DNA of 64,000 bases, from assembly GCA_010093485.1 (NCBI GenBank), contig MU001492.1, positions 1,597,122-1,661,121 of the forward strand, written 5' to 3'. The stretch comes from Karstenula rhodostoma CBS 690.94 (lineage: Eukaryota; Ascomycota; Dothideomycetes; Pleosporales; Didymosphaeriaceae). Below, one piece after another: positions 1-49,359 of this stretch (position 1 is the first letter of the stretch; each line of letters begins with the position of its first letter). The notes beneath the pieces were generated by a model. The model searched no databases. It had not been told where the DNA came from and was given only the letters and a program-made list of their open reading frames with translations. A program made the position numbers and the translations under genes.

Positions 1-3000
1 GAAGCTTTCGTTGCGCGAGTTCATCTCATGAAGTACCGTTATACAAGACTTGTGTCAAACCAGCCCGGGAAACCTATTGGAAACGATGGGGTACGGTAGC
101 AGTTGAAGGGATGAACCGGCGTTGCGAGGCGTTCGGTGGAATGGGCGATTTTTGCCATTCGTGAGCAAGTTGGCTAATGTTTTGTTCGTGGTGTTTATCT
201 TGTGGCCGACCGCCCAAAGACAATAGGCGATGATATGCCTTTGGTCTACCATGTCGTAAGAAGTTAGGGGTCTGGGGAAGAGGCGTGCGGTGCTCGGCAT
301 GCCCTCCGGGGACCCGCGCAGAAACCGCAGTTGAGTGCCAGATCTGGTAGATTGTATTGTATAGACGCTTGCTTATGACTGACTGGAGGGGTCGCTGACT
401 TTTCTCCTTATAGGGTATATACCGAATGCACGAGAATGTTTCTCGTGACTGACCGAAGACGCCGTAATTGCCGTTCTTCCGGGGTTTTGTTTCCGCGGTA
501 TCGTTGTGAGGAAGATGCACTCTGGGGGCAGAAACATAGCTCAGGCGGGAGTCGGATTTGATGCGAGCACCGTATGGATAATTAAGTAGCGATTCATACG
601 CTTTCTCCACAGAACATGTCGGGTTGAGAAGTTGTGTCTTTCTACGACATGATATGTAGTGTTCGGAGATATGCCAGATCCGTACAGCACATGGAACAGG
701 TTTTTGAGCCCCCCAGCACATCGATCGTCTCCTTTTGTGGTTTTGGTCCGCTCCTTTCACATGTATACACTTGTGTACTGCTTGCAATCTCCAGCACATT
801 GCGAAGAAACGTCCTTATTTGTAGTATTGTCGTTCATAAGGACCGACGGTGTGGAGACGGAGACAAAGAGCCGCGCAGAAGTTTTATTGCACTCAGTTCC
901 GAGGTACGAGCATAGTGAGAAGAGGACGCCGTTTTTAAACGACCTTCCTCCAGAAAGACATCACGTTGCTCAGATTCATCTTTGGTCCCCTCCCCCAACA
1001 TGAGTTGCTTGGTATCGTGCTTCGGAGTCTGTAATAGGTGCTTTGGAATGCCTGCAGGCTCACCCCAGACATGCCATAGCGTCCACATTGGTTATGGTGC
1101 GTTCGCCATGTGAAGGATTCACTGATGAACCGCCTTCTGCTCCGACACGCACACAATGCCTGGTTGCATGCTTTTGGTCAATGCCCTCCAGCATCAAGTT
1201 TGACAAGGTTAATTTTGGACAGCCTGCCCCGGCGCATGCGACCACGCTCAGTTCGTTTGAGAAGCTCGAGAGAAGTGAAATATTGCGTGGACGGAAGGAC
1301 GGCCACAGCGAGCATGTCTTCATCCAACTGTACTTTTCATGTGTGTTCCCCATGTGTGCATCACTAGCGCTGCTTCTTCTCTTCCACCAGCTTTAGGAAT
1401 CTTGGTGTACCTTCGGTCGTCTAAACGCATTAGGTCCCGCACGATGTTGGTGTAGAGTCCACGCGGCATATGATTTTCCTTCTTACCTTGTTCCTAGTAG
1501 ACGGACGATACTGATAGCTTGTACCGAGCTAGAAGAATCGCTATTCACAAGCATCCGGGTCTTCGAGAAGGTGTTTCAGAGTGCACTTCGACAGGGCATT
1601 CCAATAGCACCGCAGGATATCTTCCAACAGAAAATGTAGGTAGAAGTGGATCTTTTCGATTCTCGAGCCCATATTTGCCTATGAATCGATGTCTTCTAGA
1701 GCGCACCCAATGCATGACTTTTTCGGCACGTTGTTTTTAGTATACGGACGGTACTGACAGATTGTGCCGAACGAGAGGTGCGAAGGGCTCAGTATATATA
1801 TATTGATCGTGAAGTTACACACAGCTTATAGAGTGTGGAACTTTGTTTGCTCTTCACTCCATAACAGGGCCTAATTACTCATTATAGATAGCCTATCCAC
1901 GGAGACGCGCATATTCTGTCCAGGCCATCATTTCTGTTTCTTCGATGTGATTTCGAATGTTGAAGGCGATGGGCCATAGAGTGCAAACTAAAAGCTTCGG
2001 AGCAATATCTCGGCACCTTGGGTGGATATGTTTAGGCCCCAAACAGCGCGTATCATTCTTCAGATTGCCAGCTTTTAGATCGACGACACTCGATGTTGTG
2101 AATCTGGGCTACTTTGGGAAACGTAGGAATGGTCTGTGAAGGCAAGGACGGACACAGACACATATATCCGTCGTGTTTCTCTTTTAGAACAGGGTCGTCG
2201 TGCTCTCCCGAATGTCCACGGCTCCGGGATCCGCACATGTCAAGCTCGACCAAGAATTTGAATATTTCCATCCACGATTGAGCCGCAGAGGACATAAATC
2301 CTGCTGCGATGAGATACGCGACGCGGGCATACGTCTCCGGACAGAGAGTCGCTTACTGGCATGGGTTGTCTTAAAGTTGTGCTTTAGCGCTTAGGGCTTC
2401 GTACAAACGCAGAGTCCATGAGAATCGCCTCTGATGATTTTACACCGGCACGACAAAGACATTCGATGTAACCTGGCCAGTTTTTGAACTCCCGTGGTCG
2501 CATGGCATCTGGTTATTTGGCTTTTTAGCCCACACTGAATTGCTTGAAGGTTGTGTGAAGAAGCTCTCGTGGAGATGCGGTACCCTTTATACCCTTCCAG
2601 GAACATTTATTCGTAGATCTTTCTCCACTCGGGACTGCCTATCGAACAGTCTCATTGGTGTTTTGAAAGCTATTCCCGGCCGAACCTTGGGCGAGAGCAC
2701 ATCCCCACATGCATCGGTGCCACCGCAACTTTTGCATCCCACATGAATAATTAGCGAGAAGTGGTAAGAGTGAAGTCCTCTTGGGCCGCACAGAGCCATG
2801 GGACTGATCTTGTTCTGTTTCAAGCACGCCAGCAAACACATTTGGTGCACCGCCCGGTTTTTTTAGCACACGCAGCACATGGCCTTTTAGTGCTTCCTGT
2901 TCTGAGACTTTTAGAATACTTTGAAAAGTGTGAAGAGCAAGAAACATATAAACTTGACGCTTTCATGCCCCCCAGTTATCCCAACTTCACGTGTAGGCAT

Positions 3001-3985
3001 GGATCTTGCACGCATGAAACATAATTGCCACCCTAAGCGTTTCGATCTGCTTCGGAGTGACCGGAAAGGACATCGTGATGGCCTTTTAGAGGTCTTTCAG
3101 ACCTACCACTTCACATAGAGAAGAATGTTGAGAATTTGGTAGCTGTCCACGTATCATCGACCTAAGGCTTCTTCAGCCGGGGAGCAAACACATGAACTCG
3201 CTGTGTGATAGTTCCCAAGGACACACATATGTCTCACTTGGCATGGTTTCTCGAAAACACTTGGACGCGCTACCACAAGGCTTTAATATAGTTCAAGCTC
3301 TCGCAGAGAAGCTACGGGTGAGTGGAATACGTTCCATCTAAAAAACATGGCCACGAGCATCTGTTTTCTTTTAGAAAAGTGGGACTTTGCTCGCACAACG
3401 AACAGTCCATGCCGTCTAAGCAAGATTTATCCTGCGGGAGAAGCTTGATCTTAAAGAGGGAAATGCATTCAGAGGCGCAGTATCGTTTTGGGGGTTTCTC
3501 CGGACCATGAAATGTGGATCGTAGGTTTTTTGTACTCGGGCGAGGAACATACACAGTAATGTTGTCGTTTTGTGAGGGGCGTATCTTCAAGTCGTAGATC
3601 GAGAGGTGGATGACTTAGAGGCTGAAAACCATGTATTTGTTCGTTTTCATGTTTGGGTGTATCGTGGACTCCTATCCACTTGAATAATGCATCGATAACT
3701 TTTAGTTTTCTTTGCAGGCTGGTTCAGAACTGCTGTAAATTTGGTACAAGCAACTCTGTCTTGGTTTTCGCAACCACACAGAGAAGAACATGTATACCCT
3801 TTAGTATCAATTTGGAGATTGGAGGGTCCTCCAAGAAGTCCCACATGAGAAAGAACCCATAATGTTTTGGACCCGGTAGAAAGGTCATCATAAAAGTGCG
3901 TCGTGATTTCAGCCCAGGGGGAGCGGAAGTTGTGTGAAGAAAGGAAGTGTGGCAGAGTCGATAGCTAGCTATTTATACATCCATC
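1..3985 (+). repeat. Gene-free zone of degenerate promoter-like repeats (zone 1)
   Basis: No credible gene is seen; the open frames here are short, overlapping on both strands and resemble nothing known. Short boxes recur: T-runs ending in TTTTAG (for example near 2521 and 2863), AGCACATG or ACACATG, and GTGTGAAGAR at 2553, 2928 and 3932. At 2553 a TTTATACC follows 33 bp downstream; at 3932 TTTATACAT follows 40 bp downstream, then CATCCGAT. This is the same box order as in the array at 42.9-46.2 kb, but older and less regular. A partial tandem duplication (about 243 bp) lies around 1501 and 1744. The zone runs off the left edge. Confidence 0.6.
1501..1770 (+). repeat. Approximately 243-bp imperfect tandem duplication inside zone 1
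   Basis: A 27-bp stretch at 1501-1527 beginning ACGGACGATACTGATAG recurs at 1744-1770 with four substitutions (23 of 27 identical). Both copies follow a TTGTT...TAG box, so the duplicated unit carries the same T-run/TAG element as the other repeat zones. The 243-bp period matches the roughly 250-bp period of the array at 42.9-46.2 kb. Confidence 0.6.
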
Positions 3986-4043
3986 CGATTCCATCTCATC
4001 GTATACAGGCTATGATGACTCTTTAGCTCTCTAAAAACGCCAA

Positions 4044-5207
4044 TTACAGCTGCTCAAGCCACTTTCGCACTTCATCGGCGCCCTTTCCCCACTCCTCGTG
4101 GTTTTGTAAGTGATGCGCGACCCCATCCACCACCCTAAATCGTACCCGGTTCTCCATATCATCCTGCTTCAGATTTGAACCCTCCAGATCGTTACTTGCC
4201 ATCTCTTTGAACGCGCGTCTGTACCGCTGCGCTGCATCCTCGAGAATGGCCGGGGTGCAAAGGACGTCTTTCTCCGCGGCGAGGATGAAGAGTCTTTGGT
4301 TCGACTCTGACATTGGTCTGTCGCTTGTTGACGTCGATGGCACAGATCTGCGGTGTGCCCAGCTGGTGATAGAGGAGAGTACATCCGGGCCCGTGACGAA
4401 GGCATTTAGCGCCTGCATCGGCCATAGCATAGACTCGTAGGGTGAAAGAAGCTTAGCAAAGGTCTGAACATGTCGCACCGGTGTTTCAGCCGTGAAAAAC
4501 GCATCTTGCACCTGTTTGACTGTCGCTAGGAGATATCGCGAATGGTAGCCGCGGTATGTGAAGTGAATCGGTGCAGTCAAAGCCCAGAATCTGTAGCAGC
4601 CCCAGCTGCCGAAGCCCGGAACAGCAGCAAACATACAGAAGCCCTGTACCTGGAACAAATTCCTGCTGAGGGCATACTGCGACAAGGCTCCTCCTGCCGA
4701 ATGTGCGATGAGGACAACCTTCGTCCCCGGTGCACCTCTTCTCGCAGCTTCCAATGCTTCGACATACTTGATACCAGCGGTCAGGTCCTCCACCATGGTG
4801 CCTCGCGTGGTGAAATACAGGCGCCAGAACCAAGGGTACCAACTCTTGCCGTGGCCGCGGTAGCTAATTGCATAACAAGGGTAGCCAACCGCAGCAAAAT
4901 ACTGCATGTAATTGAGCCACTGCTCTGCACAGCCAAAGGCTCCGTGGGCAAAGAATAGCGGAGGCTTTTCTCCATCAGAATATGCGGCGGATGTCGTGGG
5001 TGATGCCGTCAGCAGTTCAAGTGGGCCTGATGGAGTGTGGATTGAGGAACGTGTTATGCCTTCAGGGAGGGGTGACGATGGTGGGGGATTTGGCGAAGGT
5101 CGCCGCCATTGGAGCGCAAATGGACCGAAGGACATTCTAGTGCCTAAACACAAGTCGATTCGAGTGAAGTTGTAGGATCCCTCTGGGATGCCCGAATTGG
5201 TGCCCAT
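4044..5207 (-). CDS. Alpha/beta hydrolase family protein
   Basis: A 387-residue single-exon gene. The fold's landmarks are in order: an HG oxyanion pair near residues 88-89 (FFAHGAFG), YRGHGKS near 116-122, a nucleophile elbow AHSAGG with Ser170, an acid candidate Asp314 (AAEKDVLCTP) and a late histidine at 365/366 (VAHHLQNH). This is a complete Ser-Asp-His set, so an active esterase, lipase or related hydrolase is likely; the substrate cannot be read. There is no signal peptide, suggesting an intracellular enzyme. Met25 (position 5135) is an alternative start, since the first 24 residues are not hydrolase-like. The gene sits at the right edge of repeat zone 1, whose last promoter-like core points toward its 3' end. 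Confidence 0.9.
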   Translation of the reverse strand: MGTNSGIPEGSYNFTRIDLCLGTRMSFGPFALQWRRPSPNPPPSSPLPEGITRSSIHTPSGPLELLTASPTTSAAYSDGEKPPLFFAHGAFGCAEQWLNYMQYFAAVGYPCYAISYRGHGKSWYPWFWRLYFTTRGTMVEDLTAGIKYVEALEAARRGAPGTKVVLIAHSAGGALSQYALSRNLFQVQGFCMFAAVPGFGSWGCYRFWALTAPIHFTYRGYHSRYLLATVKQVQDAFFTAETPVRHVQTFAKLLSPYESMLWPMQALNAFVTGPDVLSSITSWAHRRSVPSTSTSDRPMSESNQRLFILAAEKDVLCTPAILEDAAQRYRRAFKEMASNDLEGSNLKQDDMENRVRFRVVDGVAHHLQNHEEWGKGADEVRKWLEQL

Positions 5208-34319: not shown

Positions 34320-37300
34320 ATGCAACCAGAGCCTCCACACGCTTCCCAGAACACACTGTCCCAACAACTTGCCCCCGAACACCCCGCCACCACCTCCCAG
34401 CATGGCCCTCAGGATCGCGACCAGCAGCTCTTCCCGCTCTCTCACCACCTTGGGGAGCCGGGAGAGCCAGTGCCTGCGAGTGCCGCTGGTGAGCACGCGT
34501 CGCGCGAATCCAGTCGCGACCGCGACCCCTACGCCGCCACTCGACTGAACCCCGCGAGCCCCCCGCCCCGGAACAAGATCACAGAATATGAGAATGCCTT
34601 AGTACAGTCGCCCAAGAAACGATCTCATGGCCCAGTATTTGAGGTGATCAAGTCTGCGAGGAAGCCCGACGACAAGAGCTGTCCAATTGCTAAGCTGCCG
34701 AATGGTGAGTCAACATAGTGTGCAGCACCTGCAATTCGACATCTGACACCCACACAGAAGTTTTGACCCACACCCTCTCCCACTTGTCGCCGCATGACCT
34801 GGCTGCCGTGTCTCTTGTCTCGAAACGTTTCAATGGCCTCGTTACCACCCCTCATGCCTGGCGTGAAGCCTTCAGTCGCTACTTCCCCGGGCCTACAGCT
34901 CTTGTCGACGCGGATGTGCGATTGGCCTTGGAAGAGGCCGGCGACAGCTTCCGCTCTGAGAAGCGTGCTTTCACCCGTCTCACAGCGCTGTCTTCCTGGC
35001 GTAGCGAATACATACTACGCACCCGACTGCTGCGCTCGCTGGCCAGAGGCAAACCCGTCCAGGTTGAACCCGTCACTGCTGCTCGCTCTGGGCAGCCGCA
35101 GAACAACGCCCCGGTGAACATGTACAATGCCTTCACATACACCACCATTAACCACTTGCACGCTACATTCGGCGCAGGGGGTCTGAACAAACGAGTTCCC
35201 CGCTTGATTCACGGAGCAGACGACGTAGGCATGTGCACCAGCAGCGACCCCACTATCACCAAGGTCGATCCATGGGGCCAGAGCGACCCCAACTTTTACG
35301 CCCAATTCTCTGAACGCTTCCCTGGCGTCCCCGAGTGGGGTTTAGGATCTGGCGAAATAGTCGGTCGACCGAATGTTATGGATGTGTCACAGCAATACGG
35401 CATGGTATACGGCCAGGGCTGCGCCGAAGGATCTTGCTACTACCGTGCTACCGATGAGCAGCGAGGTCGTTTTATCGCCGAGCCCACCGATTTCTCGATG
35501 CCCGAAGCCGGCATACCTAAGCTTGGAGTGGACGGCGGTGCCATTTGCAGTGTCTGGATCGCTAAATCAAACGTCATTCCCAACCGGACCGATGGTTTGA
35601 TCGGAGTCCTCATGGGTTCCGCAGCCGGTGTCGTATCAGCATGCAGCCTTGGATCTGATGGCCTTCGTGGTACCCGTCTTCACCGTGGCGAGATCGTCGC
35701 TCGCTGGATGCTCAGCCCCGGCGTGCCGATCGTCGCAATTGCTGTCGACGAGAACTACTCTCAACAGCGCCAAGCTCAAAATCGTATCTGGGCTGTGGCA
35801 CTCAACGCCTTGGGCGAGCTGTTCTATCTGACCAAGTTCCCCACGAGGAGTCGAGCGCCAAATGACCAACTCGATGAGTACTTCCCTGAGTACCTTGCTT
35901 GGCTCACCGGCCGCAGCGTCTACTGGAACATTGTCGAACCCAGCAGACGGACCGCGAGACCGGATCCTTACAAGGACGTGGAAATGGACGGAAGCTACTC
36001 GCCAAGAAGCTCGTGGGATGGCATGTGCTTGAGCAAGGATCAAATCCTAGCTGAAACGAGAGAGATTCAAAAGTTCATTTCCAAGACACCCAAGGAGTTC
36101 CGCAAAACGTGTCTTGGGTGGGATATGCGTAGACGCCTTGAGGTCGACTTTGCAGGTGACGATGGCAACTACGCGGGAGAAGCCATGGTCATTGTTGAAT
36201 GTGGGCTTGAAGAGGGGGATGTCGCCAAGCTCACTCGGTTTACGCGCTGGAAGACTCGTGAGACCACCAAAGGTAGCACCACCTCGACTCGAGTCGCTTC
36301 TCAGCAAGCATCTAAATCTGCGTCACTGTTCGGCGGGTCTGGTGCCGCTACTCCTAACGTACAACAACAGCGACTCCCCCATCGGATGCGTAGCCAATCT
36401 TACGCCTCCGACAACAGCTCTCCTGAGCGGGCCAACCTTGTCGAAGAGTGGAGAACATCTGATCTGACCCTCGGCGGCCTAAAGGTTGTTCAGATTGCTA
36501 CTACTGCCATCGACTGCTCTACCTTTGCTACAATGACTCACTCAGAGGATCCTGCCTTGGGTTTCTCAGCTGCTTCGACGGCCTCTTCACCTTATGCTTC
36601 GCCCATGTCAGTAGCCAGTCAACCGGCATCTCCTTCAGATATTCCCGGTCAACGTGCTCGCTTTGTTGCTGCCGGTACGAAGACTGGCGAAGTCCTTATG
36701 TGGGATCTACGGGCTCCGGTCTCACGAAGTGCCGAGTATCCGAATCGCCTTCCTCCTGTGCGGATTATTTACACTCAGTCGCCTGAGATCAGCTGCCTTG
36801 CTCTGACAGCTTTGCACATCGTAGTCGGTGGCTACGACGGACTGGTCCAAGCCTGGGACCCTTTGGCTTCAGACACTAAACCTGTTCGTACATTGCATTC
36901 TCGCCATGCTACCCGTGCTCGCAGACGCATTCAACAAGCTCAAGCTTCAGTTCAGGGCGTTGGCGTGAACATGTATGCGGCAGGCGCCATCGTGCTCGAC
37001 CCCGATCCAACAGTCCTGCGTGGAGCAGTATCTGTTGGAAACCAAATCCGCTATTGGAGTTACAGTTCTTCGGCGGCCGATCAGTACAAGAGCAGCAAAC
37101 GCCGCCTTCGCCGTGGTGAACGTGGAAGCAATAACGTGGGCGAGCGCGTCGTTGGCGCGACGCGCCTCAACCTGAAGAACTACATCGACAACGAGAAGCA
37201 CGAGCTCGAACGCGAGAAGGTGGAGCGTCGCAAACAGGCCGATCGCCTTGCTGGCCGCTTCGGTGTCGACCTCTTGGGCAGCGAAGAGGAAGCTCTGGCT

Positions 37301-37792
37301 TACGCCACGATGCTTTCGCAAGAGGCCGCACAGGCGGACGAAGCCAAGCGCATAGAAAGTGAGAGCAGCTTTGCCCTCAGCAGCGATACAGCGACACCCG
37401 AGCCCAGCATTGCGCATTCTAGCTCGCCCACTATGGCCATCGACCCCGAGCTCGACGCCGATATTGCCGAAGCCATACGTCTCTCCTTACAAGACAGTCC
37501 CGCGTCCGGCATTTACGGCGCTGGGTCGCCGGCTCCGAACGAGGAGTGGGACATTCCAGTCAAGTACACAAAGGGCAAGAAGAACGGTAATCCGAAGCCG
37601 GGCGGCAAAGCGGGCGGCGCATCGGGGTCAAGCAAGGATACAGAGATGGATGATTTGGAGTTCGCGCTGCAGCTTAGCCTTGCAGAAGAGGCGAGCAGAA
37701 AGGAAGTGACAGCGAGTGAGGATGCTTTTCCGCCGCTCAGTCCGCGGTTAGGTGGTGGGAAGGGCAAGGGCAAGGCGAAGGCGCCATGGTGA
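34320..37792 (+). CDS. F-box protein with C-terminal UIMs, Ufo1-like
   Basis: Exons 34320-34704 and 34758-37792 encode 1139 residues. After a disordered Pro/Ser-rich N-terminus, an F-box lies near residues 127-175 (LPNEVLTHTLSHLSPHDLAAVSLVSKRF is split by the intron). A long beta-propeller-like region follows, with WD-like pieces (GTKTGEVLMWDLRAP, HIVVGGYDGLVQAWDPL). The C-terminus has ubiquitin-interacting motifs: ALAYATMLSQEA, DADIAEAIRLSLQDS and LEFALQLSLAEEA. F-box, then WD repeats, then UIMs is the arrangement of yeast Ufo1, an SCF adaptor that brings substrates for ubiquitination and Ddi1-assisted degradation. The identification rests on architecture, so orthology is likely but not proven. 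Confidence 0.88.
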
Positions 37793-38039: not shown

Positions 38040-40850
38040 TTACTTCTTTCAATTTGACGGAGACTGATGATCCTCTCCACTATCATGTTTGGTGATGATG
38101 ACTACAGTGCCTGAGCACACACGCTGAACCCTATCGCTATCTTCCCTTTCGTCTTTAGTGACTGACGCAGATGACTCGCCCTAGACATTGAACATGTGTT
38201 TGAGGACTTTGGAAGAGGGGAACAGCACATCAGATCCTGCTGTGTTGTCTTTAGTCTGATAACTACGGAGCCAATTCGCTCACCACATCTGTTTCTTGGC
38301 ATATATATCCTTTGAGAAGGAGACAGCACATCACGTCTTTTATGTAGAGTTTGAATATCGCGGTGACTCCCAAGTAGAAGCCATCGCGACGGCCTGTTGT
38401 CGTTTATAGATGGGACAGCCATGCACATGACTTCAATGTACCGGGGATCTGGTGAGAGGAGCAGCCAGGAACTTTCATGTTTGGGTTTGTTATGATGTTT
38501 GGTATGTGGTACTGAGGTTTTTAGGGGAAGGTATAGGCAGGTGGGCTGGAATGTTGGACTGCAGAGCGGGCTCCGGATATGCAATCCGCACGTGGTGGTT
38601 TTGGAGAGGGGCAGGAACGGAGCACGGCGAATTTGGCTAGTTGCTTTGCAGTCCTTCTGATGGGAAGCTTCATGTAGGTGAGAGGAGACGCGCTCCGGAT
38701 AGTGTTTTAGGCTTGATAGTTTTGGAACGAGAGCAACAGAGACATCCGATGGAGGTGCATATCTTTTTCAATGACATGTGAGACGATGAAGCGCGAGGCA
38801 GCACGCGTAACCTGGGTAGATTTGCTTTTTAGATGTCGACACACGCGCTCTGGACATGGCCCACTGATCCCGCGGGTTTTCGAGGCGAGAGAAGCAAAAC
38901 ATGTAATCATCGTATCGCGGTTTGGAATACAGTGGATGGGATGCTGGAGCGAACAGCACACATTGTATGGTGCTGTGGCGTTTTTGAACACAAACGACAC
39001 GTCCTCCGGACATAGTGCTAGGATCAAGGGGTTTTTGGAACGAGACGAGAGAGCCGAGGTATTAGACGTTGCGTCAACAATTTAGAGTCGGGGTTGCTGG
39101 GCTTACAGAAGAGTCGCCGTAGATTTAGATTGGCTAGGCTTTATATTGTGGACGAACGGGCAGGCTCCCGATATAAGACACTTTGGAGCGGGAGAGTAGA
39201 GACATGCATACGTATCCTCAAAAGCTGGATTTGATGAATCGCTCGGCTTACGGCTCTCGGTCCCATGTTTTGGCGACGAAGGTACGGGCTTCGGACATGA
39301 GGATAAGTTGTAACGGTTTGGAGCGAAATGAGCAGAGACATCGCGTGCATTGCATTGCACTTTTAGTTCAAAGGTTGAGGAGAGCAGCAGCTGGAGACAT
39401 CATCCACTTTTCGTCTCAATTTTAGAGTGTGGGATTGGGACGTGTGCGAGAGAGGTGTTTTCAGACAGGTGTCGTTGATGTACCCCAGTGATCGCTTGTT
39501 TTAGAAAAAAAGAAGCGCTCCAGACATTTGGTGACTGGCACGTAGTTTTGTGCAAAGGACACTTCAGGCACATGGAGTCGTGGTTTGCAATCTTTGTAGC
39601 GTGAAAGTCGGAACGGCGGCACAAGATGTTGGCGACACATCGCTGCGATTTGAGTTGCAAGGTTGAAGAGAATGCAAGAGAAACGTTGGCTGATAAGAAA
39701 ACGACCGTCCTCGTATTGCCATTTATAAGTGCCAGCGCATCACAGAGACATCAATCAACAGCGTGATCATTTTGAGAGAAAGGCAGAACGGAAGACGTAT
39801 GCCGTTGTAGTACTTTCTTTGAAACTGAAGTGTGCGCCGATTTTCCGCCAAAAGCAATAAGAGAAACTCGCAATGGCTTTTCGATCGTGGGAAGAAAGCA
39901 TCGGAATGAATGTCTCATAGTTTTTTATTGACTCAGCGTTCCCATAGTACGTTCTGCACGGCTTTTTGATTGCGGGTCAAGTGGCTCAAAATATTGAACT
40001 TTCCTGAGTTCGTGTCAGTATGAGCTCCACTACTGTTTTCTTTTTTGGCAGAAGGAAAGCAGGAAAGACATGGAAGGACCATTTTCGTCCTTAGAGCGCT
40101 ATGCGCCAAGCAGATCGCTCACGAGGAACATAACCTGTGCTGTTTTGTCTTTGGGGGTCTATGCGTTCTACAGGGAGACCTAGAAGTGAGCTCAGTCTCT
40201 TCGAAGTTGTGAAGTTCGTTGTGTACAAGCTTGAGCAATATTTCGATCCGGGCGGGACATGAAATGACCGGGATTGCCTTTTTAACACGGCAACGAAGCA
40301 GCGGAGAACATAATACTTTCGAATGAGCTCTTCAGAGTATGGATAGAGGAGAAAGTGATAGGAGGGAGCATAAAAGCTGCAAAATGCGCTTTTGATTGCG
40401 AGAGCTTGAGACAGCATGCTCCATGGAACACCTTCATGCCCTTGACGAACCAGCACTCCCATGAACAGGATTCTGAAGTACTTTTGGTGACATAGAATGC
40501 GTGGGGAAATCGGAAGCGCGAGGCCTGGTCCAAATCAGGCTTTGTGTGGGATTCCTGTGTGTTTATCCCAAGAGTTCTCCTCAAAAGGGCTCTCTCTTCA
40601 TACAGCGTCATTTTCTACATACCTCTGCTGCCTTCATCACGTGAGAGCACGCCAGTCCTGGAAAATATCACGCTCATATGCCGCCACGCCACCTGGGCAG
40701 TGCTTATGCTCAGTAAGAATTGGTTTTCGACTGAAAACTGGATATGAGTATTCTATATCTCGTGAGTGTGTTGCTAACATGATGAGAGGTGAAAAACACA
40801 TGGCGTTGAGGACGGATGCTGTCACCAGTGAAGCTCTAAACTAGCGCCAC
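38040..40850 (+). repeat. Gene-free zone of degenerate repeats (zone 2)
   Basis: No gene is seen in this 2.8 kb. A recurring element reads roughly TTTTGGAACGAGAGNAGAGACATC, with copies near 38719, 38930, 39034, 39182, 39318 and 39358; it resembles the T-run/AACACATG box of the array at 42.9-46.2 kb. TGGTGATGATGACTA near 38088 resembles that array's palindrome box, and many TTTTAG strings occur (38704, 38828, 39360, 39420, 39501). Regular GTGTGAAGAG-TATA cores are not kept here, so this is the weakest of the three related zones. Confidence 0.5.
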
Positions 40851-41869
40851 GCCAGCCTCTACTCCTCTTTCCTTAGCGGGCAGCGGATTGGCGGCCCGAT
40901 TATTTTAGCTAATCAGAACTTAGAAATTCATTACACGTTTCAAACTTTCCATGTGCGTATGTATATCAAGAGCTGATCGGAGAGTTCACATGGTCACTGT
41001 ATATATAAAGTGACGCGCCTTAGCCGCTTTTTTGGTCCCCCTTTGTTCGTGCATTGGCAAAGCACAACGCGCCTTTTTGTCCCCCCTACTTAATCGAGTC
41101 ACCCTACCTCATAGTGAATCTCTACAATATATATTTTAAATCTTGCCGGTACTCGACAGTCGACGAGGTCGGTATGCGTGGTCTGCCTGCTACAAAGACA
41201 CACCTGAAGGTTCTATGGGATGTCCTGGCGCTGAGACTCAAAATGCATGCCCATTTTCGAGCCCCGGCCACAGACTTAGAACATACTCCGCAAGATGCTT
41301 CCAAACTTACTCTGTAAATTGTGGAAGTCGGGCCAAAGGAGTGCGCGCTCACTCCCACTGTTCCAGCTGTGGTCCCCAAAGCAGAGCTTCATCATAGCAA
41401 GACAAAGATGCAATGTGCTGCCCGTGGATGGGGCCAAAGACTACTCGAATTGACTCATGTGCGGTTCTTTACGCAGAGATTCCACCTTAGGCATGTACAT
41501 AGGGACTGTTTGAAAATGATCGACAAAGGGCATGATGGAAATAATGTGTTGTTTCTTAACTTGAACTCAATGCATTTGTTTGCAACCTGATCTTTTGTCC
41601 GAGTCCAACACCTGGTCGGATGCGAAGTAAAGGAACCTTGGCGCTATACTTATCTTCCCACGGCTCCCAAGAGGTCCATGCTACAATATTCTGCGGTCCT
41701 ACTGTGCGAAATGGGACACGAACTCAATAAAGGGGACGTATGCTCGTGCTTTCATGTGGCACGGCACTCGAGCGAGGTCAAAAGTGAAGCCGCATCGTGT
41801 TGTTACACACCATCCCAGGCCTAGATGATGCCTCAGAGGGATTTGCTACTATAAATGACCAAAATATGC
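40851..41869. other. Intergenic region with possible mobile-element debris
   Basis: About 1 kb with no convincing gene. GACGCGCCTTAGCC with a T-run near 41012 is partly repeated as ACGCGCCTTTTTG near 41066, and a similar string occurs near 21568, hinting at a small dispersed element. 41230-41285 has weak resemblance to Pol III A and B boxes (see rejected items). Confidence 0.35.
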
Positions 41870-42372
41870 CTACAACTTGCTCGGAATTTTCTCTTCCCTC
41901 CCCTTCAGTCCCGGATGCTGCTTGGTAATCGGCCTCGTAACCGCATAGAAAGCTAAGCCCTCACTCTGGGTGCTAAACTGGACCTTTGCGCCTACATGAA
42001 AGAACGCAAAATCGCCTGGGACCAAATGATGCGTGACGCCTGTTGCCTCGTCCAGGACGTCGATTTGTCCTGTGAGAACGTACTTGGTTTCCTCGTAGGC
42101 ATATGGTCCGGCATTGCGCGCGGCGCCGGCCTGGATGCGGTAGAAGCCCGAGGTCAGATAGGAAGGATTATCTTTGGTTTGGGTTCGGGTGCTACAGAAC
42201 GGTCGGTCAGTTCGTTGAGCGCGAAGGTGCGAGTTAATGAAGATAACGTACGAGTGGAAATCTGCGAGGGTTGCGCTCTCGCCCTCAGGGATAGGGATGT
42301 ATTCATTGCCTGCGCCTTTTATGACAGTAAGCGGAACGGCTTTTTGAGACACTGGAAAGCTGTTAGCCGATG
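41870..42372 (-). CDS. Cupin-domain protein (EutQ-like), 5' end unresolved
   Basis: The reading frame gives VIKGAGNEYIPIPEGES, ATLADFHS, then after a 60-bp in-frame intron (42192-42251, GTACGT...TGTAG) TRTQTKDNPSYLTSGFYRI, followed by the cupin core AGPYAYEETKYVLTGQIDVLDE and VPGDFAFFHVGAKVQFS. This matches small fungal cupins related to the ethanolamine-utilisation protein EutQ; the role is unknown, possibly a small-molecule isomerase or binding protein. No ATG exists in frame: upstream is a GTGAGT donor-like site at 42406 and an acceptor CTAACAG or TTTCCAG at 42351-42360, so a first exon must lie further right, but none with an ATG is convincing. The gene may be 5'-truncated by the adjacent repeats. 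Confidence 0.65.
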
Positions 42373-42803
42373 TTACCCACCTCCTATAAGAGAATGCTTC
42401 ACTCACTGATCGCTTGTGATTCGTGAATTACAAATAAATAAAGCCAGTTATACAGAAGGGATGGCGAGTATTGTATGAACTTATATCATGCTTATCCTGA
42501 GCACGTTATATGGTCCCATCGCTCGTAATTGTAAACCCTATCAATATACTTGTTAGTAATTGCGTCATCTTCTCCTCTTCTCATGGCCGTGATTTATTTC
42601 CGCATTGGGTAAAGCGTCCTTGTGATCTTCTAATTGTTGACACGAACTACGAAGTAGTGTCCCACAAAGTGATAGACAAAAATATGGACTGCTACTGCCG
42701 CCCAATAGTAACACAAAATGAAGTGTTGCAAATGGTTAGACAAAAAGCGGCCTTGTCCAGTGCCACGATATCCACGTATCGAAGGTGCGAATCCAAGCCG
42801 AGC
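42373..42803. other. Intergenic region between cupin gene and repeat array
   Basis: About 430 bp, AT-rich, with no coding signal; it could hide the missing first exon of the cupin gene. Confidence 0.35.
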
Positions 42804-42869
42804 ACTCTATCGGGATGCTCGCCGAACCCCAGACCCACTCTATCGGGATGCTCGCCGAACCCTCCAGAC
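42804..42869 (+). repeat. 33-bp tandem duplication
   Basis: ACTCTATCGGGATGCTCGCC followed by GAACCC occurs at 42804 and again at 42837, nearly identical, so the copying is recent. It lies directly before the first unit of the promoter-like array. Confidence 0.85.
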
Positions 42870-42930
42870 CCACAAAACACATGAGGGAATTCTTCCTCCC
42901 TTTTAGTCCCTAAACCAAATAGACGGAGAA

Positions 42931-45900
42931 GTGTGAAGAGCAATACACCTGCAGATAGGACAGCTTATATACGCCAAAATCATCCGAATCTGGAGTCTGA
43001 AACATCTTGTGAGCCATGGTGATGATGCTCACCACTCCTGTGTGCGAATGTAGTGAGCAGCGCCCAGGCCGAGGCTCAGTCCGAACAGCCCCATCAGCAT
43101 GCTGAGAGTGCATTTCTGAGCAGCCAATCACATGTCACCGGATCCATGGAGCTTCTAGTTCATAGAGGAGCTTAAAAGTGAAGGGAAAGATTGCTGCTGA
43201 TGAGAGAACTCTATATACGTCGGACTCATCTGAAGCTCGATACCGTCGCACTTAGGAAATGGTGGTGGTAATCATTACGTCCATGTACATTTATGGCGGG
43301 ACGCTGGAGGTCCAGACAGAACGTTCCCATGAGATCGTACGTGCTACTTTTAGAGCTGGCAGAACACATGTTGAGTCCAGAATTCATCATTTAGTCCACC
43401 TATAGGAGTCTGAACAATTGTGAAGAAGGGAGGTACCGCGGATTGGAATGATTTAAATAATCAGCAGGCACCTTCAGCTTGATACTTGGTTCGAGGAGAT
43501 GATGATGATAGTGATAACTGCCACCACCACGCGCTGATGCATTGATATGTGCGCTTCCACACGTCCAGAACCAACCGCAACACTTCCATAGCGGCTGTGT
43601 CGTATTGCTTTTAGACCTTGCGCAACACATAAGGTTCTTGACCCGGACATGTCAATCCCCCGATATAGAGGTGTGAAAAGAACAACACCCAGCGGACTAG
43701 AATGACGTTCTGTATACACGATGACCAACTGAACTCCGGCACTCGAGGCATTTCTGGATTATACTGGTAATGGTGATAAGCAGCATTGTCGTATATACAT
43801 CCTGCAGCAGCCGCCAATGCATATCTTACATGTTCGATTCCCACGCGAGCCACCCAGCTCCATGTGTTGCGTGTATGTAGATTTTTAGAAGCCACACAGA
43901 GCATGCGTCTGCGCCTATAATGGTCTAGAACCCCAGGCAGAGCTCATATCATCATCGTGAATTACGTTTTAGTTCCTCCCCAGAGCGACGTAGAAGTGTG
44001 AAGATCACATAGAGCGCGACAGGTACCGGATTATATACACTCTACTCATCTGATCCCTATATCCCGACTTTTCGCTCACAACAATGCCAGTAGCCGTGGT
44101 GAAAATCACCATCATGTACGAACACCGCGAGTCAAATGAGCAGCGTGTTTTCGCACGGTCGGAGACACTCCCATACGTTTCTGCTGGCTAGGTTTTTTAG
44201 GACCGAACAGAAAACACATGATATGCCCAAAGGAACTTTTTAGTTTCTCCCCAGAGAAATTTACCAAAGTTTGAAGATCCTCTAACCGCGGAGAAAAGCG
44301 GGTTTATATGCCCAACCCTCATCCGAAGCCCCCATCAAGATGCCCGGTCTACAGTGGTGCTAGCAGCAGTGATTAACATCACCGTAAACACCACGCACAA
44401 AACGCGCTAGACACGAAAAGCTCAGCGCTCGCCGACTGGAGGAACCCTCACATGTCCATGCCAGACTGAACATTCGAGCCCAAAGGCAACATTATGCGTA
44501 TTTGATTAGCCTCTTAAAGCCAGGGAGAACACATGTTAAATGTGCTATCTTGTTTTTAGTGCCCAGCAGAAGGGCAGAAGTGTGAAGACTACCTTGAGCA
44601 CTGAGAGGAAGGGTTTTATATCTAGGTATCGTCTGATGTGTTAGAGATTGAACGGCTTATCGAAACGTGGGAACTGGTGATGCGTACCACCACCACGAAC
44701 GCACGTTCTAAGTAATCTATGCCTAGCCACGGAACGAAAGTCTCCATGACGCGGCGCTCTGAATTTTTTGGATCGCAGGACACATAGAACTTTTTTTCCA
44801 ACGCCTTTCGCCACCCATTAGAGAAGCGCAAGTGTAAAGAGCACAAAACCGCCAAAGGAGGTAGTTTATATACTTGCGCCTCATCTAACCTTCTAGAACC
44901 TGCTAAACACACTATTATATTATCGATGGTGGGCATCATCATCAACATCCCTCACCATGCGAGGCCCACATTACGAACTTTCCCAGCGGGAGGCCGCCCA
45001 TGCAATCAAGATCTATGTTGTTTTAGACGCGCGAACGGCAAATAGGTGGTTTGCGCTCAAATCTTTAGTCTTCCATAAAAAGTGTGGAAGTGTAAGGGGT
45101 ACGACACTGCGAAAAGACGGGGTTTATATACTCAGATACCATCCCTTAACTGCAGATCGCAGATGTGGTGATGTGCGCCATCACCCCGTACGAGCATGTC
45201 GACTCCCTGTTTCACAGAACTTCAAGCCAGCAGGCCTCCCATGGCTCAAGAAGATCGGGGTTTTTAGACACGCGGAGGCGCCATTGAGCTTCTTGGATTC
45301 ACCTTTAATCTTTCCTCAAAAGCGCAGAACTGTGAGAACCAACAGCGTGCGAAACGAGGGGGATTGATTATATACCCACACACCATCCAATATCCTCAAA
45401 CCCATCTACAGCTTAGAACAGTGGTGGTGCGTATCATCACTCTGTACGGGGAATACGGAGGCCCGGTGGAAAGCTCTAAGCCAGCAGACCTCCCATACTT
45501 CTTGAAGAACAACCTTTTAACACGCGGAGGCGCCATAACCGCTTTCATATCCACTTTTACTCCTCCCCCAAAAGCGCAGAACCGTGCGAACCAAAATCCT
45601 ACCAAAGATACTGCTTATATACCCAGCCACCATCCAACATCCCCAAACCTCTCAGCGAATTAGAACAGCGGTGCTGGCTATCATCACTCGTCCTGCGGCA
45701 TACGGAGGCTACGTGGAAAGCTCCGGGCCGGAAGGATTCTCATCAATAACAAAGGAAAGTGTTTTCGACGCCCAAAACGCCATAAACAAAAAAGAACACA
45801 GTCTTTTAGCCTTTCGTAGAAAGAGTAGAAGTGCGAGGAGCAAGAGAGCAAAAGGAGGGGATTTTATAGATGGGAATGCGTCTGATGTCCTCGGCTCGGG

Positions 45901-46130
45901 GTGGGCGGGGGAGTGGTGATGAGGATCATCATCATAAGCCATGGCTACGAGGTACGTGTCGTGGGGTAGCGTTGTCGAGGAACGGGCAGGAGCGCTCCCA
46001 TGGAGTCTGGATGAACAGCATTTTAGACCTACGCGCAAAACATCATTGCGCGGAGCGTTTTTTAGTAGCCATTGAAGGCTTGGAGGTGTGGGGAGAATAG
46101 GAAGGGTGGAAAGGGAGCGGGTTATATAGA
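42931..46130 (+). promoter_or_regulatory. Thirteen core elements: GTGTGAAGAG box plus TATA at fixed spacing
   Basis: Core and TATA starts: 42931/42964, 43178/43211, 43418/43451, 43671/43711, 43996/44031, 44269/44303, 44580/44615, 44832/44865, 45090/45123, 45331/45368, 45582/45614, 45831/45862, 46086/46122. The separation is 31-37 bp in twelve of thirteen. A T-run (TTTTTAG or TTTTTTGG type) lies 134-176 bp after most TATA boxes, where a Pol III terminator would be for an RNA of roughly 110-150 nt. An upstream element at fixed distance from a TATA is known from snRNA-type promoters in other eukaryotes; its use here is inference. Confidence 0.55.
43018..45185. promoter_or_regulatory. Recurrent palindrome GGTGAT...ATCACC in array units
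   Basis: Clear examples: 43018-43033 (GGTGATGATGCTCACC), 44098-44110 (GGTGAAAATCACC), 44369-44382 (GTGATTAACATCAC) and 45167-45185 (GGTGATGTGCGCCATCACC). The other units have imperfect versions (for example near 43261, 44670, 45422 and 45911). The loop differs in length and sequence while the arms stay complementary, which suggests selection for a dimer-binding site or an RNA hairpin. Confidence 0.6.
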
Positions 46131-46167
46131 TGGTGTTTGTCTGGTGTTCTCTGTTGCAAAGTGTGAT

Positions 46168-46203
46168 GGTGGTGGTGGTGGTGGTGGTGGTGGTGGTGGT
46201 GGT
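46168..46203 (+). repeat. (GGT)12 microsatellite
   Basis: Twelve perfect GGT triplets. It occupies exactly the palindrome slot of the thirteenth array unit (followed by GAGTATCATCG), so it looks like a slippage expansion of the GGTGGTGATG box. On the minus strand it encodes a His run in a spurious frame. Confidence 0.95.
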
Positions 46204-46463
46204 GAGTATCATCGAATGCACCTCTGCAAAATAAGCAGTAGAGGTGGTGTAACATGAACCATAGGCAAGGCCAGCCTTTTATGTATGGTCCGTGTTGCAC
46301 CACAGCCACTACTTTACTTTCTAGGGGCACATGTGACAATGCTCTACGAAGCAAGCAGATGCTGAGAATGGGTATCACGCCTTCTCAAGAACAGCCAAAC
46401 ACAATCCGCTGAACACTCTATCGCAAGATTACCGGCATTCATCGATCCATCTCAATGAACGCT

Positions 46464-48548
46464 TCACGCCCTCTGCTCATCCATCGCATTCCTCTCCTCC
46501 GCAGCCACAACCGCACCCTCCCAGCTGGCCCTATAAATGTAAAAACCCTCAATCGCAGCAACGAAGCCCAACGCAACCGCGGGCCCCTACACATTGTCAG
46601 CAACCCATCTCCCATCATCACGCACGCGCAGGCCAAACTCACCGTCCACAAGCCCCAAAGGCCCCACCCAGCGCCAAACGCGAGCCCAAAGCTTATCGGC
46701 ATCCCGATAATGTAGTACGAAAACAGCGCGATGTACCCGCCGATTTCCTGCTTTCCGATCCCGCGCAGGATGCCGTTGGAGTTCGCCTGCATGCTGTCGA
46801 AGAGCTGGAACGCGGCGCACAGCGGGAGCAGCGAGGCCACGAGATCGATGACGTCGTCGTCTGGGGTGAACAGTCTGGGGATGTAGTTCCTGAGCAGAGA
46901 CAGAAACAAGAGGTTGAATATGCCGACTACGACGGAGAAGACGATTGCTACTTTCGCCGCCATCTTCGCGTGCTCGTGCAGCGTGGCGCCGATGAGGTTC
47001 GCTATGCGCGTCGAGGCTGCCACGCTCATGGGAAACGGGATTTGGAAGGTGAGACCTGTCACGGATCCCAGTACCGACTGCGCGGCAAGCGTGGTAGGAC
47101 CTAGCCAGCTCGACGACAGGGTGAGGATCTCGAACGCGAGGAACTCGGCGAGAACCATGACGAGTCCTGGGAGCGCGAGCCGGATCATGGGACCCCAGTT
47201 CTTCAGCGCACGCCGGTCGAAGCCGCCCCAGCATTGGTACCCATCTATGAATCGCACGTAGCAGAAGAGCATCAGCGGCATGATGTTCTCGGTGATGGCT
47301 ACGGCGATGGGAGCGCCCACAAAGCCCCAGTTTAGGCGCCACACGAAGATGTAGTTCATGAGGGCATTGAGCGGCGCGCAGAAGAGTAGGATGTACATGT
47401 TGGCGGAGAAGAGACCCTGGGCTTGTAGGTAGCGTTTTCCGCCTTCGAACGCGGCGTAACCTGGTGCCCCGGCAATCAAAATGCGTAGGTAGAGACCGGC
47501 CAGTCGTGCGGTTTCTTTGTCGGGGACGATGTGAGATAGAATTTGCTCTCCGCAAGCCCAGATGATTGCAATTGGAATGGTAATCACCCAGAGGAAGCAA
47601 AGCATTCGCTGCAGCTGTAAACCTACGAGATGGGGGCGACCGGAGCCGTACGCTTGCGCGCAGAGAGTGTCGAGTGAGGTGGCGAGTCCTTGGTATACTG
47701 CATATCCAGTGATGCTAGCAGTCACTGTTCCAATCAGTAACGTTCGTGAAAATCCTTCAAATTGTTTCTGGACACTTACTGCTCGCCAGACTCACGGCTC
47801 CAAGCTCGATCGTTCCAATGTGTCCGACCGTGAAGATACTCGCGACCGGCAAGCTATACTGCAACACAAACGTCAATATGAGTGGTGCCGAGCTCTTCAG
47901 CAAAACCTTTGTTTCTCGTTGCCATGTTGTTTTCAGTCGCCCCGATGCAACCGCCTCATCGAACCGCTGTGCTATGGCCCTGGGCGTGTCCAGCCCAGCA
48001 TAGGGCAGGTCTGGGTCTCCCAGAAGCGGATTCCTCTCATTCGGCCCTTCATGCTCTTGCCGGTCGTCGGCTGTAGCACTGTTCGTTTTCCGCAGCCCAG
48101 GTAAACTCAGTCTCCGGGCTATGGCGCCGTAGCCTCCGCTTTCACTTCCACTCCTGGGATGTTTTGGTGGAAGTAGATCGTTATCGCGGAGTAGGCTCCG
48201 TTCCTGCTCGAGCACCTCCTCGCGTTCTTTCTTACTTAAATAGCTATGCTTCTTCCAACTCTGAATATCCGAAACATAATTCTGGCTCGGCACACTGGAA
48301 GAAAACACGGTTCCACGGGCGCCTGGATTCATGTAGCTCGGCCGTTGGTAGGAGTTGACCATGGAAAATTGGCGGACAGTGGACGAGCCATCCGTGTCTG
48401 ACTCGTCGGAGGGCGAATCATCCTCTTCGTAATCGCGGGCGATTGCTTCCTCGGCTATCCGTGGCGACGAAGAGAGGTGCTCCAATTGCGATGTGATATC
48501 TGATATGGGGGCAAACTCGCCGTTATCGTGATCCCGTGGTGGCGCCAT
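46464..48548 (-). CDS. MATE-family multidrug/toxin efflux transporter
   Basis: Exons 47780-48548, 46643-47724 and 46464-46586 encode 657 residues. A disordered, acidic N-terminus of about 200 residues precedes twelve membrane helices. MATE landmarks: SAPLILTFVLQYSLPVASIF (helix 1), GLATSLDTLCAQAYGSG (the ALDTLCGQAYGAG motif) after helix 2, and QSVLGSVTGLTFQIPFPMSVAASTRIANLIGA in the second half. MATE proteins export cationic compounds by H+ or Na+ antiport, usually at vacuolar or plasma membrane. The last intron (46587-46642) restores the usual ending GPAVALGFVAAIEGFYIYRASWE; without it the frame reads into a basic non-homologous tail. ATG at 48548 was preferred to an upstream non-conserved in-frame codon. 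Confidence 0.94.
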
Positions 48549-49359
48549 GATAGGGGTGAGCAGCGGGGTGGCTCGGACGTCACACAACACCGCCCTCTGT
48601 AGTAACGGTGAGATGCTGAAAGTTGGATTGCAGGTGTTGAGGGTCGGAAAGCAGTGGAGCTAGAAAAGCAGTGAAGGCTATGTATGTGGAGTCGGAGCAG
48701 GATCGCCGTGTGAACTAGGATTGTGGTGCAGCTTAGAAGCTAGATGCGGCAGTTCCATGCGCGGCCCCTACAGCTTCTAAGCTTAGCTTTCCGCCCTTTT
48801 TCTTTAATGCATCGAATGCAAGCGAACTCCCAAGATCGATAACTCAATCCTCATCATCCTTGGCTTTATATGCAGCTCGCTGCTCACCCTGTTTGGGGTT
48901 TCTCACTGGCGATGTGCTGCAGAATTTTCGTGCAAACCCCCGGTCTCCGGTAGGCGAATCTTGTGGCCCGCGCGGTGCAGGATACCTCAGAGACAAGACC
49001 ACGGCATCCATGCGAGACCCCATTGCTGTCGAAATTCAAGCGTCTAGTATGGCTGGCCGATAGACCCGTTCGCTGTATGTTGTGGAAAAAGGGTGATCAT
49101 GCGTCACCAATGTCGAGTCCAACCGACATGTCGTGTAACAGCAGAGGGACCATGGATCCATTCAGCTTCTCTCCAAGCTTCAGATACCACCCGAGTGTGT
49201 TCAGGTTTCACAGGCTTTGGGAGGTATATCTGATGACGAATCAATACTGCGAATGGGCGGTGGCTGGTTCCATGGCTGTTCAGCATGACCTAGGTATGGA
49301 ATGTGCTACTCGAGCGCATAAAAGAAGTTTGCAACACTACGCATGCGATCGATTATCCG
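48549..49359. other. Intergenic region, no gene seen
   Basis: About 810 bp: promoter of the MATE gene and the 3' flank of the PQ-loop gene. AAGCTTAGCTTTCCGC near 48780 and a near-copy of TTCTAAGCTTAG on either side suggest a short palindrome. No gene is seen. Confidence 0.4.

Follow-up and report, generated by a model that had tools for sequence, protein, structure and literature searches.

Tandem arrays of diverged, promoter-like units recur across the genome of the fungus Karstenula rhodostoma

Introduction

What kind of sequence keeps a series of short boxes in order along a tandem array while nearly everything between the boxes is lost? The question is raised by a stretch of 64,000 nucleotides (hereafter the window; C1:1597122-1661121 in the genome under study, which comprises 44,326,383 bases in 29 contigs) from the Pleosporales fungus Karstenula rhodostoma CBS 690.94. 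In this window, a sequence-only reading had described one array, A1, consisting of 13 strongly diverged units of about 250 bp. We found that A1 is not alone, since the window contains three such arrays and the genome about 35 clusters. The arrays have boxes, spacing between the boxes, a single orientation, no coding signal, and a promoter-like composition. The promoter-like layout lies on the minus strand, opposite to the strand on which the boxes had been read.

Results

Boxes and spacing in array A1

Thirteen units of about 250 bp could be placed in an alignment of A1, with TATA anchors 242-321 bp apart, and profile matches run over the whole extent listed in Table 1. In a leave-one-out test, 12 of the 13 held-out units were recovered with E values of 1.7e-5 to 6.3e-20 (19 to 66 bits), and only U13 was missed. 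The best matches of the leave-one-out profiles outside A1 scored 10.2 to 15.7 bits and always lay at 41.0 kb, in transposon-like sequence, or at 2.87-2.99 kb, within a second array, A2; in one randomised window, the best scores were 5.9 to 7.9 bits. Tandem Repeats Finder did not report A1 because the units are too diverged, which bears out the earlier statement that they share almost no continuous sequence.

A box pair was defined as [AC]CAT followed at a fixed distance by TTTTAG with at most one mismatch. A1 contains 15 such pairs, compared with a mean of 0.5 and a maximum of 3 in 200 dinucleotide shuffles, and none on the opposite strand; three control stretches of the window contained 0-2 on either strand. 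Matches to a further box, the G box, numbered 14 (shuffle mean 1.9, maximum 8). The possibility that shuffled sequence would yield similar arrays thus failed on the box pairs.

The grammar of the boxes was counted over 12 array segments (about 34 kb in total). TTTTAG was found 126 times in the forward and 7 times in the reverse orientation, TTTTAG[AT]C 67 times on one strand and never on the other, and GTGTGAAG 17 times forward and never in reverse. Among the 64 pairs in which TTTTAG follows CACAT by less than 40 bp, 51 are spaced 23 or 24 bp (51 of 99 when the limit is raised to 70 bp). Spacing peaks were also observed from TTTTAG to the G box (23-27 bp) and from the G box to TATA (36-40 bp), and the distance from TTTTAG to the following CACAT was loose. 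The boxes listed in the sequence-only reading are real, but two of its entries, TTTTTAG and CTTTTAGT, represent a single box, TTTTAG[AT]C, that occurs twice, and it included AACACATG while omitting CTCCCATG, both of which are variants of C[AC]CAT located 23-24 bp before TTTTAG[AT]C.

On the minus strand, the box pair takes the form of a CTAAAA-N17-ATG[TG]G module, and the 65 extracted module spacers have a near-constant length and share no 10-mer. Constant boxes around unique spacers are what would be expected if each unit or module produced a different short RNA, in a design like that of the nematode 21U-RNA loci. The genome also contains RNA interference (RNAi) genes, with 8 Piwi-domain matches at 7 places (two of them weak) and matches to RNA-dependent RNA polymerase (RdRP) at 3 places. 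However, fungal small RNAs are usually independent of such promoters, and we regard small-RNA gene arrays as unlikely. Two of the RNAi-gene matches contain internal stop codons, which may be introns.

Two local irregularities were observed in and beside A1. U13 contains a 14-copy GGT/GTG run (46163-46204), in which one arm of the palindrome seems to have expanded, and a 33-bp tandem duplication, 27 bp of it identical, lies directly at the left edge of the array (42803-42873).

Uneven divergence of the units

BLAST among the 12 array segments (plus strand, E 1e-3, alignments of at least 50 columns) gave 17 alignments within arrays, some of them overlapping, and none between segments. This occurrence of matches within but not between arrays led us to conclude that the units spread by local duplication, with no detectable exchange among arrays. 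What the arrays have in common is the boxes. In the 17 within-array duplicates, the mismatch was 0.141 in the boxes (n=488) and 0.237 in the spacers (n=1199); by box, it was 0.132 for T, 0.113 for H, 0.184 for G, and 0.079 for TATA. Uniform divergence, which would have undermined the earlier claim of ordered, promoter-like boxes kept better than their spacers, was therefore not observed, and the claim is further strengthened by the layout described next.

A promoter-like layout on the minus strand

As anchors, we used 89 G-box places, a few of which overlap; 13.7 chance G boxes are expected per strand. TATAWAWR occurred in the expected window at 25 of the 89 places on the minus strand and at 7 on the plus strand (2.6% and 1.1%, respectively, in random array windows), and the shorter TATAWA at 45 and 24. 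In 28 of the 45 rows with a minus-strand TATAWA, the first A of CACAC lies 35-38 bp downstream of it. The tract from TATA to CACAC is 72% pyrimidine: at least 70% was reached by the tract in 25 of 41 distinct units, by the upstream sequence in none of the 41, and by 7.9% of random windows. The positions used in the TATA-orientation and pyrimidine tests lie outside the box matrices apart from a few overlapping bases. Roughly half of the anchored places thus display the layout of an RNA polymerase II (Pol II) core promoter, with a one-way TATA, a pyrimidine tract, and a start-like CA at about 35 bp.

In the mould xylP promoter (PMC9703631), the TATA box precedes the most distal start site by 34 bp, and replacement of the pyrimidine tract reduced the activity to 22%. 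The units share this layout, a TATA box followed by a pyrimidine-rich tract up to a start at about 34 bp, and a minus-strand tandem Pol II core promoter is therefore the best reading of them. Unlike xylP, A1 consists of 13 consecutive copies of the layout, none with a recognised gene behind it, and in the arrays the layout is followed by CTAAAA-N17-ATG[TG]G modules.

Arrays of the same kind in the window and the genome

The window contains two further arrays. A2 has 10 box pairs (shuffle mean 0.7, maximum 4) and 7 G boxes (mean 1.9, maximum 6), and A3 has 10 box pairs (mean 0.4, maximum 3), with 2 on the opposite strand. The profile match at 41039-40970 was dropped as an array unit; it falls in a small-transposon-like sequence (40950-41180) common to the locus L066, where, as judged by eye, part of it also interrupts the array at about 2030-2110.

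The genome was searched with exact patterns and reversed-pattern controls, and the counts are lower bounds, most units having no exact match. CACAT-18/19-TTTTAGWC gave 78 matches (5 reversed) and CCCAT-18/19-TTTTAGWC 64 (0 reversed), compared with 3 (0 reversed) for the wrongly spaced CACAT-8/9-TTTTAGWC. The composite patterns behaved similarly in GTGTGAAG-17/36-TATATAC (10 versus 0) and TTTTAG-8/20-CACATG-8/38-TTTTAG (18 versus 0); TTTTAGWC-6/21-CACATG gave 26 versus 5, TTTTAGWC-8/20-GTGTGAAG 7 versus 2, and AAGTGTGAAGAGCA with one mismatch 30 versus 16. Pooling the matches of the six box patterns other than AAGTGTGAAGAGCA and the wrongly spaced one and merging those within 100 bp gave 163 sites in 70 same-strand groups, namely 35 clusters of at least two sites (24 of at least three) on 13 of the 29 contigs, and 35 singles. 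Site pairs within 3 kb agreed in strand in 191 cases and disagreed in none; without the 100-bp merging, there were 40 clusters and the agreement was 338 to 0. Among the singles, L070 is an array and A2 itself counts as one, while C20 405028 (L071) is a lone match beside an SDR-like gene, with no array there as judged by eye. Reading of the clusters by eye was partial, and the C13 cluster at 370-371 kb may be due to chance.

Dispersal over 13 contigs and both strands could have been left by an old mobile element whose tandem promoter-bearing ends, such as long terminal repeat-like monomers, decayed after they had spread, with the boxes persisting by chance or because movement required them; some retrotransposons indeed carry tandem promoter monomers. 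However, the arrays at different places fail to align with one another, the spacing is fixed in otherwise unalignable units, and there is no clear coding signature or signature of repeat-induced point mutation (RIP). The pooled RIP indices of the arrays (0.79 and 1.18) are near the values for two comparison stretches elsewhere in the window (0.72 and 0.68 for the first index, 1.21 and 1.20 for the second), although single arrays lean slightly further, and RIP damage is thus unsupported. No transposition domains were found among the open reading frames (ORFs) scanned near the arrays, the array ends lacking a systematic comparison. We consider a mobile origin of this kind improbable.

An array of centromere type, with one site per chromosome, was rejected, since C3, C4, C5, C8, and C13 each carry several clusters. 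Pattern matches outside this genome, six in viral contigs and one in an archaeal metagenome-assembled genome, were judged to be chance. All seven were scored: none contains the GTGTGAAG word, each has a single box pair, and further composite matches reach up to 5 per strand, as expected of AT-rich sequence (G+C 0.27-0.37).

Several features of the wider distribution were also recorded. The arrays gather regionally, with several on both strands over spans ranging from some tens of kilobases up to 200 kb (C13 0.188-0.218 Mb, C5 1.71-1.80 Mb, and C4 2.52-2.73 Mb). Three interstitial TTAGGG telomere-type repeats stand at the edge of the C3 array near 231 kb (L054 1748-1765), and an AT-rich stretch inside or at the end of the C25 array (L051, about 2570-2780) is probably a transposon remnant.

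The palindrome, RNA structure, and coding potential

The palindrome, which had been counted among the kept boxes, is the weakest element: in an automatic search, 4 of 37 anchored units exceeded the 95th shuffle percentile. The genome pattern GTGRTGRTG-2/8-CATCATCA gave 3 matches versus 1 reversed and is therefore uninformative. In units with an arm score of at least 6, the arm mismatches were A-C in 15 cases and G-T in 10. The folding z-score of the palindrome stretch was -0.57 on the plus and -0.49 on the minus strand (standard errors 0.19 and 0.17; 39 units). An RNA hairpin at this position was rejected, as the slight excess of folding is alike on both strands and A-C mismatches are at least as common as G-T. 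The palindrome may instead be a DNA site for a dimer, a suggestion for which the sequence offers weak support.

For whole units, the folding energies were not clearly below those of shuffled sequences (mean z 0.03 for 41 units on the minus strand and -0.29 for 39 units on the plus strand). Rfam gave no match at the gathering threshold in the 64-kb window and none at E<=1 in 42700-46400, in agreement with the earlier view that A1 matches no RNA family, and ARAGORN found no tRNA in the window.

Coding signals were likewise absent. In 13 of the 14 array segments, no open frame was longer than the maximum found in shuffles; the exception, C14b, has a 244-residue frame on the minus strand (L038 7961-8692), compared with a maximum of 185 in 50 shuffles. 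The box spacing is not codon-periodic, 23 and 24 bp both being common. Translation from the conserved ATG was rejected, since frames 0, 1, and 2 run similarly far to a stop (medians of 19, 21, and 19 codons). The base after ATGTG is A in 3 of 90 cases in register and 13 of 76 out of register, which at first suggested avoidance of ATG-TGA; however, A is scarce at several further positions after the ATG, and an immediate stop is equally common in register (5 of 187) and out of register (22 of 708). Reading TTTTAG or CTAAAA as a splice site was also rejected, no conserved branch-point or AG partner being found by eye.

Genes around the arrays

Genes were judged from open frames with no intron models. 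In the window, where the genes look fungal, the arrays are surrounded by core genes: a MATE transporter, a cupin, an F-box gene, SYF1, and PEX2/PEX12-type and ESF1-type genes (Table 1 lists those adjoining the arrays). Genome-wide, 13 of 15 flanks with a named gene turn the 3' end of the gene to the array. They are the MATE, hydrolase, cupin (A3 side), F-box, squalene epoxidase, CLPTM1, SAS4, PH_24, DUF1774, GMC (C14b side), MFS, ThiF, and thiolase genes, the last recognised by eye; the two exceptions are the cupin towards A1 and the GMC gene towards C14a. At the C5 cluster at 1.783 Mb, a WD40 gene likewise presents its 3' end to the array and was left uncounted, with an unnamed ORF lying between. 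When five unnamed ORFs without a Pfam match, all with the 5' end to the arrays (window 74-799, L034 857-2746, L036 4093-4791, L038 9433-9957, and L044 1-711), were added as genes, the figure fell to a non-significant 13 of 20, and the trend is therefore only suggestive.

These flanks bear on two further explanations. The arrays might be elements of chromosome structure, that is, platforms for a protein or complex reading C[AC]CAT-N18-TTTTAG that act as an insulator, pairing site, fork barrier, or anchor, with the TATA likeness being secondary. The fixed spacing of 23-24 bp, the strict orientation within arrays, the little RNA folding, the position of A3 tail to tail between two genes, and the 13 of 15 named-gene flanks are consistent with such a role. 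In contrast, the TATA, pyrimidine, and initiator grammar is specific and strand-biased and would not be needed by a structural site, and the flank figure is not significant once the unnamed ORFs are counted; we assign this explanation a real but minor chance. The arrays might otherwise be enhancers or decoys, in which clustered ordinary transcription-factor sites regulate neighbours or titrate a factor. Clustered, oriented boxes would suit this, as would the tolerance of the palindrome for both kinds of arm mismatch, which two independent DNA half-sites would show. However, the named neighbours mostly present their 3' ends to the arrays and a full core-promoter grammar is superfluous for a decoy, which makes this explanation very improbable.

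Table 1. Arrays, units of A1, and neighbouring genes (window positions), with RNAi-type loci by contig
Feature	Position	Strand	Remarks
Array A1	42869..46231	-	13 diverged units; boxes read TTTTAG/CACAT on plus, promoter reading on minus
U1 profile core	42869..43070	-	held-out E 1.4e-17
U2	43123..43313	-	held-out E 1.1e-7
U3	43356..43558	-	held-out E 1.7e-5
U4	43617..43819	-	held-out E 3.6e-6
U5	43933..44139	-	held-out E 7.8e-20
U6	44209..44412	-	held-out E 2.1e-10
U7	44519..44723	-	held-out E 6.1e-17
U8	44773..44976	-	held-out E 2.8e-18
U9	45029..45219	-	held-out E 1.5e-16
U10	45271..45476	-	held-out E 6.3e-20; 74% identity to U11 over 258 alignment columns, recent duplicate
U11	45523..45722	-	held-out E 2.9e-10
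U12	45778..45961	-	held-out E 9.7e-14
U13	46028..46231	-	GGT/GTG run in palindrome region; missed when held out
Array A2	300..4035	-	left edge uncertain; same kind as A1, more diverged than A1
Array A3	38050..40850	-	same kind as A1, most decayed of the three
Alpha/beta hydrolase gene	4044..5207	-	Pfam Abhydrolase; 3' end towards A2
F-box gene	34718..37792	+	Pfam F-box; 3' end towards A3
EutQ-like cupin ORF	41870..42427	-	Pfam Cupin_3, weak; between A3 (3' end) and A1 (5' end)
MATE transporter gene	46439..48590	-	Pfam MatE; 3' end towards A1
Argonaute-type loci (PF02171)	C1, C10, C11, C20		
RdRP loci (PF05183)	C3, C12, C16		

Discussion

Judged from their sequence, the arrays may be a genome-wide family of non-coding, single-orientation Pol II core promoters on the minus strand, whose boxes are kept by selection and which probably make non-coding RNA. 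Because the step from promoter-like sequence to function is an inferential one, we put the chance of this reading at about even. In the minus-strand order, an imperfect palindrome (GTGRTGATG...CATCAYCAC), which may bind an activator dimer, lies upstream of the TATA box TATAWAWR. The pyrimidine-rich tract comes next, and then, at about 35-38 bp from the TATA box, an initiator-like CTTCACACTTC. Beyond this follow CTAAAA-N17-ATG[TG]G modules, from one to several in number, whose internal spacing is fixed and of which the first is placed at about +25 and +50. Units would multiply by local duplication, with the spacers drifting afterwards, and the boxes would be kept by selection for recognition by a common trans-acting machinery. 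We infer that the promoters fire and yield non-coding RNAs that differ from one another in sequence; proteins would bind at the palindrome and at the CTAAAA-ATGKG modules.

Several points weigh against the promoter reading. An exact minus-strand TATAWA is missing from 44 of the 89 anchored places, which, beyond the chance G boxes, would be dead or variant units. The box matrices were derived from the arrays themselves, and the 2 G boxes of A3 are no excess over shuffles. Since A3 has the 3' end of a gene on either side, it is not the promoter of a recognised neighbour. Core promoters need no tens of copies, and we know of no downstream element like CTAAAA-N17-ATGKG in fungal promoters.

Known systems resemble the arrays in part. 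Intergenic spacers of ribosomal DNA contain repeats of about 240 bp in tandem, all of which carry a spacer-promoter copy in one orientation, much as the arrays do; the arrays differ in that the 64-kb window has no rRNA gene (Rfam) and in their some 35 places, their Pol II-like TATA, and their divergence beyond alignment. Satellite DNA also has head-to-tail units of similar length and local duplication, whereas the divergence of the arrays is uneven, with boxes and spacing kept. The tandem monomer promoters at the 5' end of LINE-1 likewise are promoter-bearing, non-coding units, but LINE-1 monomers and Sirevirus motif arrays are parts of mobile elements, the copies of which can be aligned, and no alignment between arrays was found here. 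The Sirevirus arrays (PMC2829016) share with ours the tandem motif-bearing non-coding units. Nematode 21U-RNA (type I piRNA) loci (PMC4015492 and PMC11262695) are similar as many clustered, independently promoted units with a conserved motif at a fixed distance and a unique product; our arrays have different motifs, a tandem-duplicated origin, and a fungal host.

By analogy with animal piRNA clusters, every unit of about 250 bp, or each CTAAAA-N17-ATG[TG]G module, might be separately promoted and give a different RNA, the promoters being selected while the products diversify. Such an undescribed class of fungal non-coding genes is a tentative extension to which we assign a low probability. No description of such arrays was found in the portions of the literature that our searches reached. 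The arrays appear unmatched to any known repeat or gene class, "new" here being relative to Rfam, the literature searched, and the classes known to us.

If the promoter reading is true, long intergenic regions of this fungus would contain an unseen functional compartment, non-coding and missed by a tandem-repeat finder. The arrays would then constitute a natural experiment on selection for promoter architecture with free spacers, and would allow a test of clustered, independently promoted fungal RNA loci comparable to piRNA clusters.

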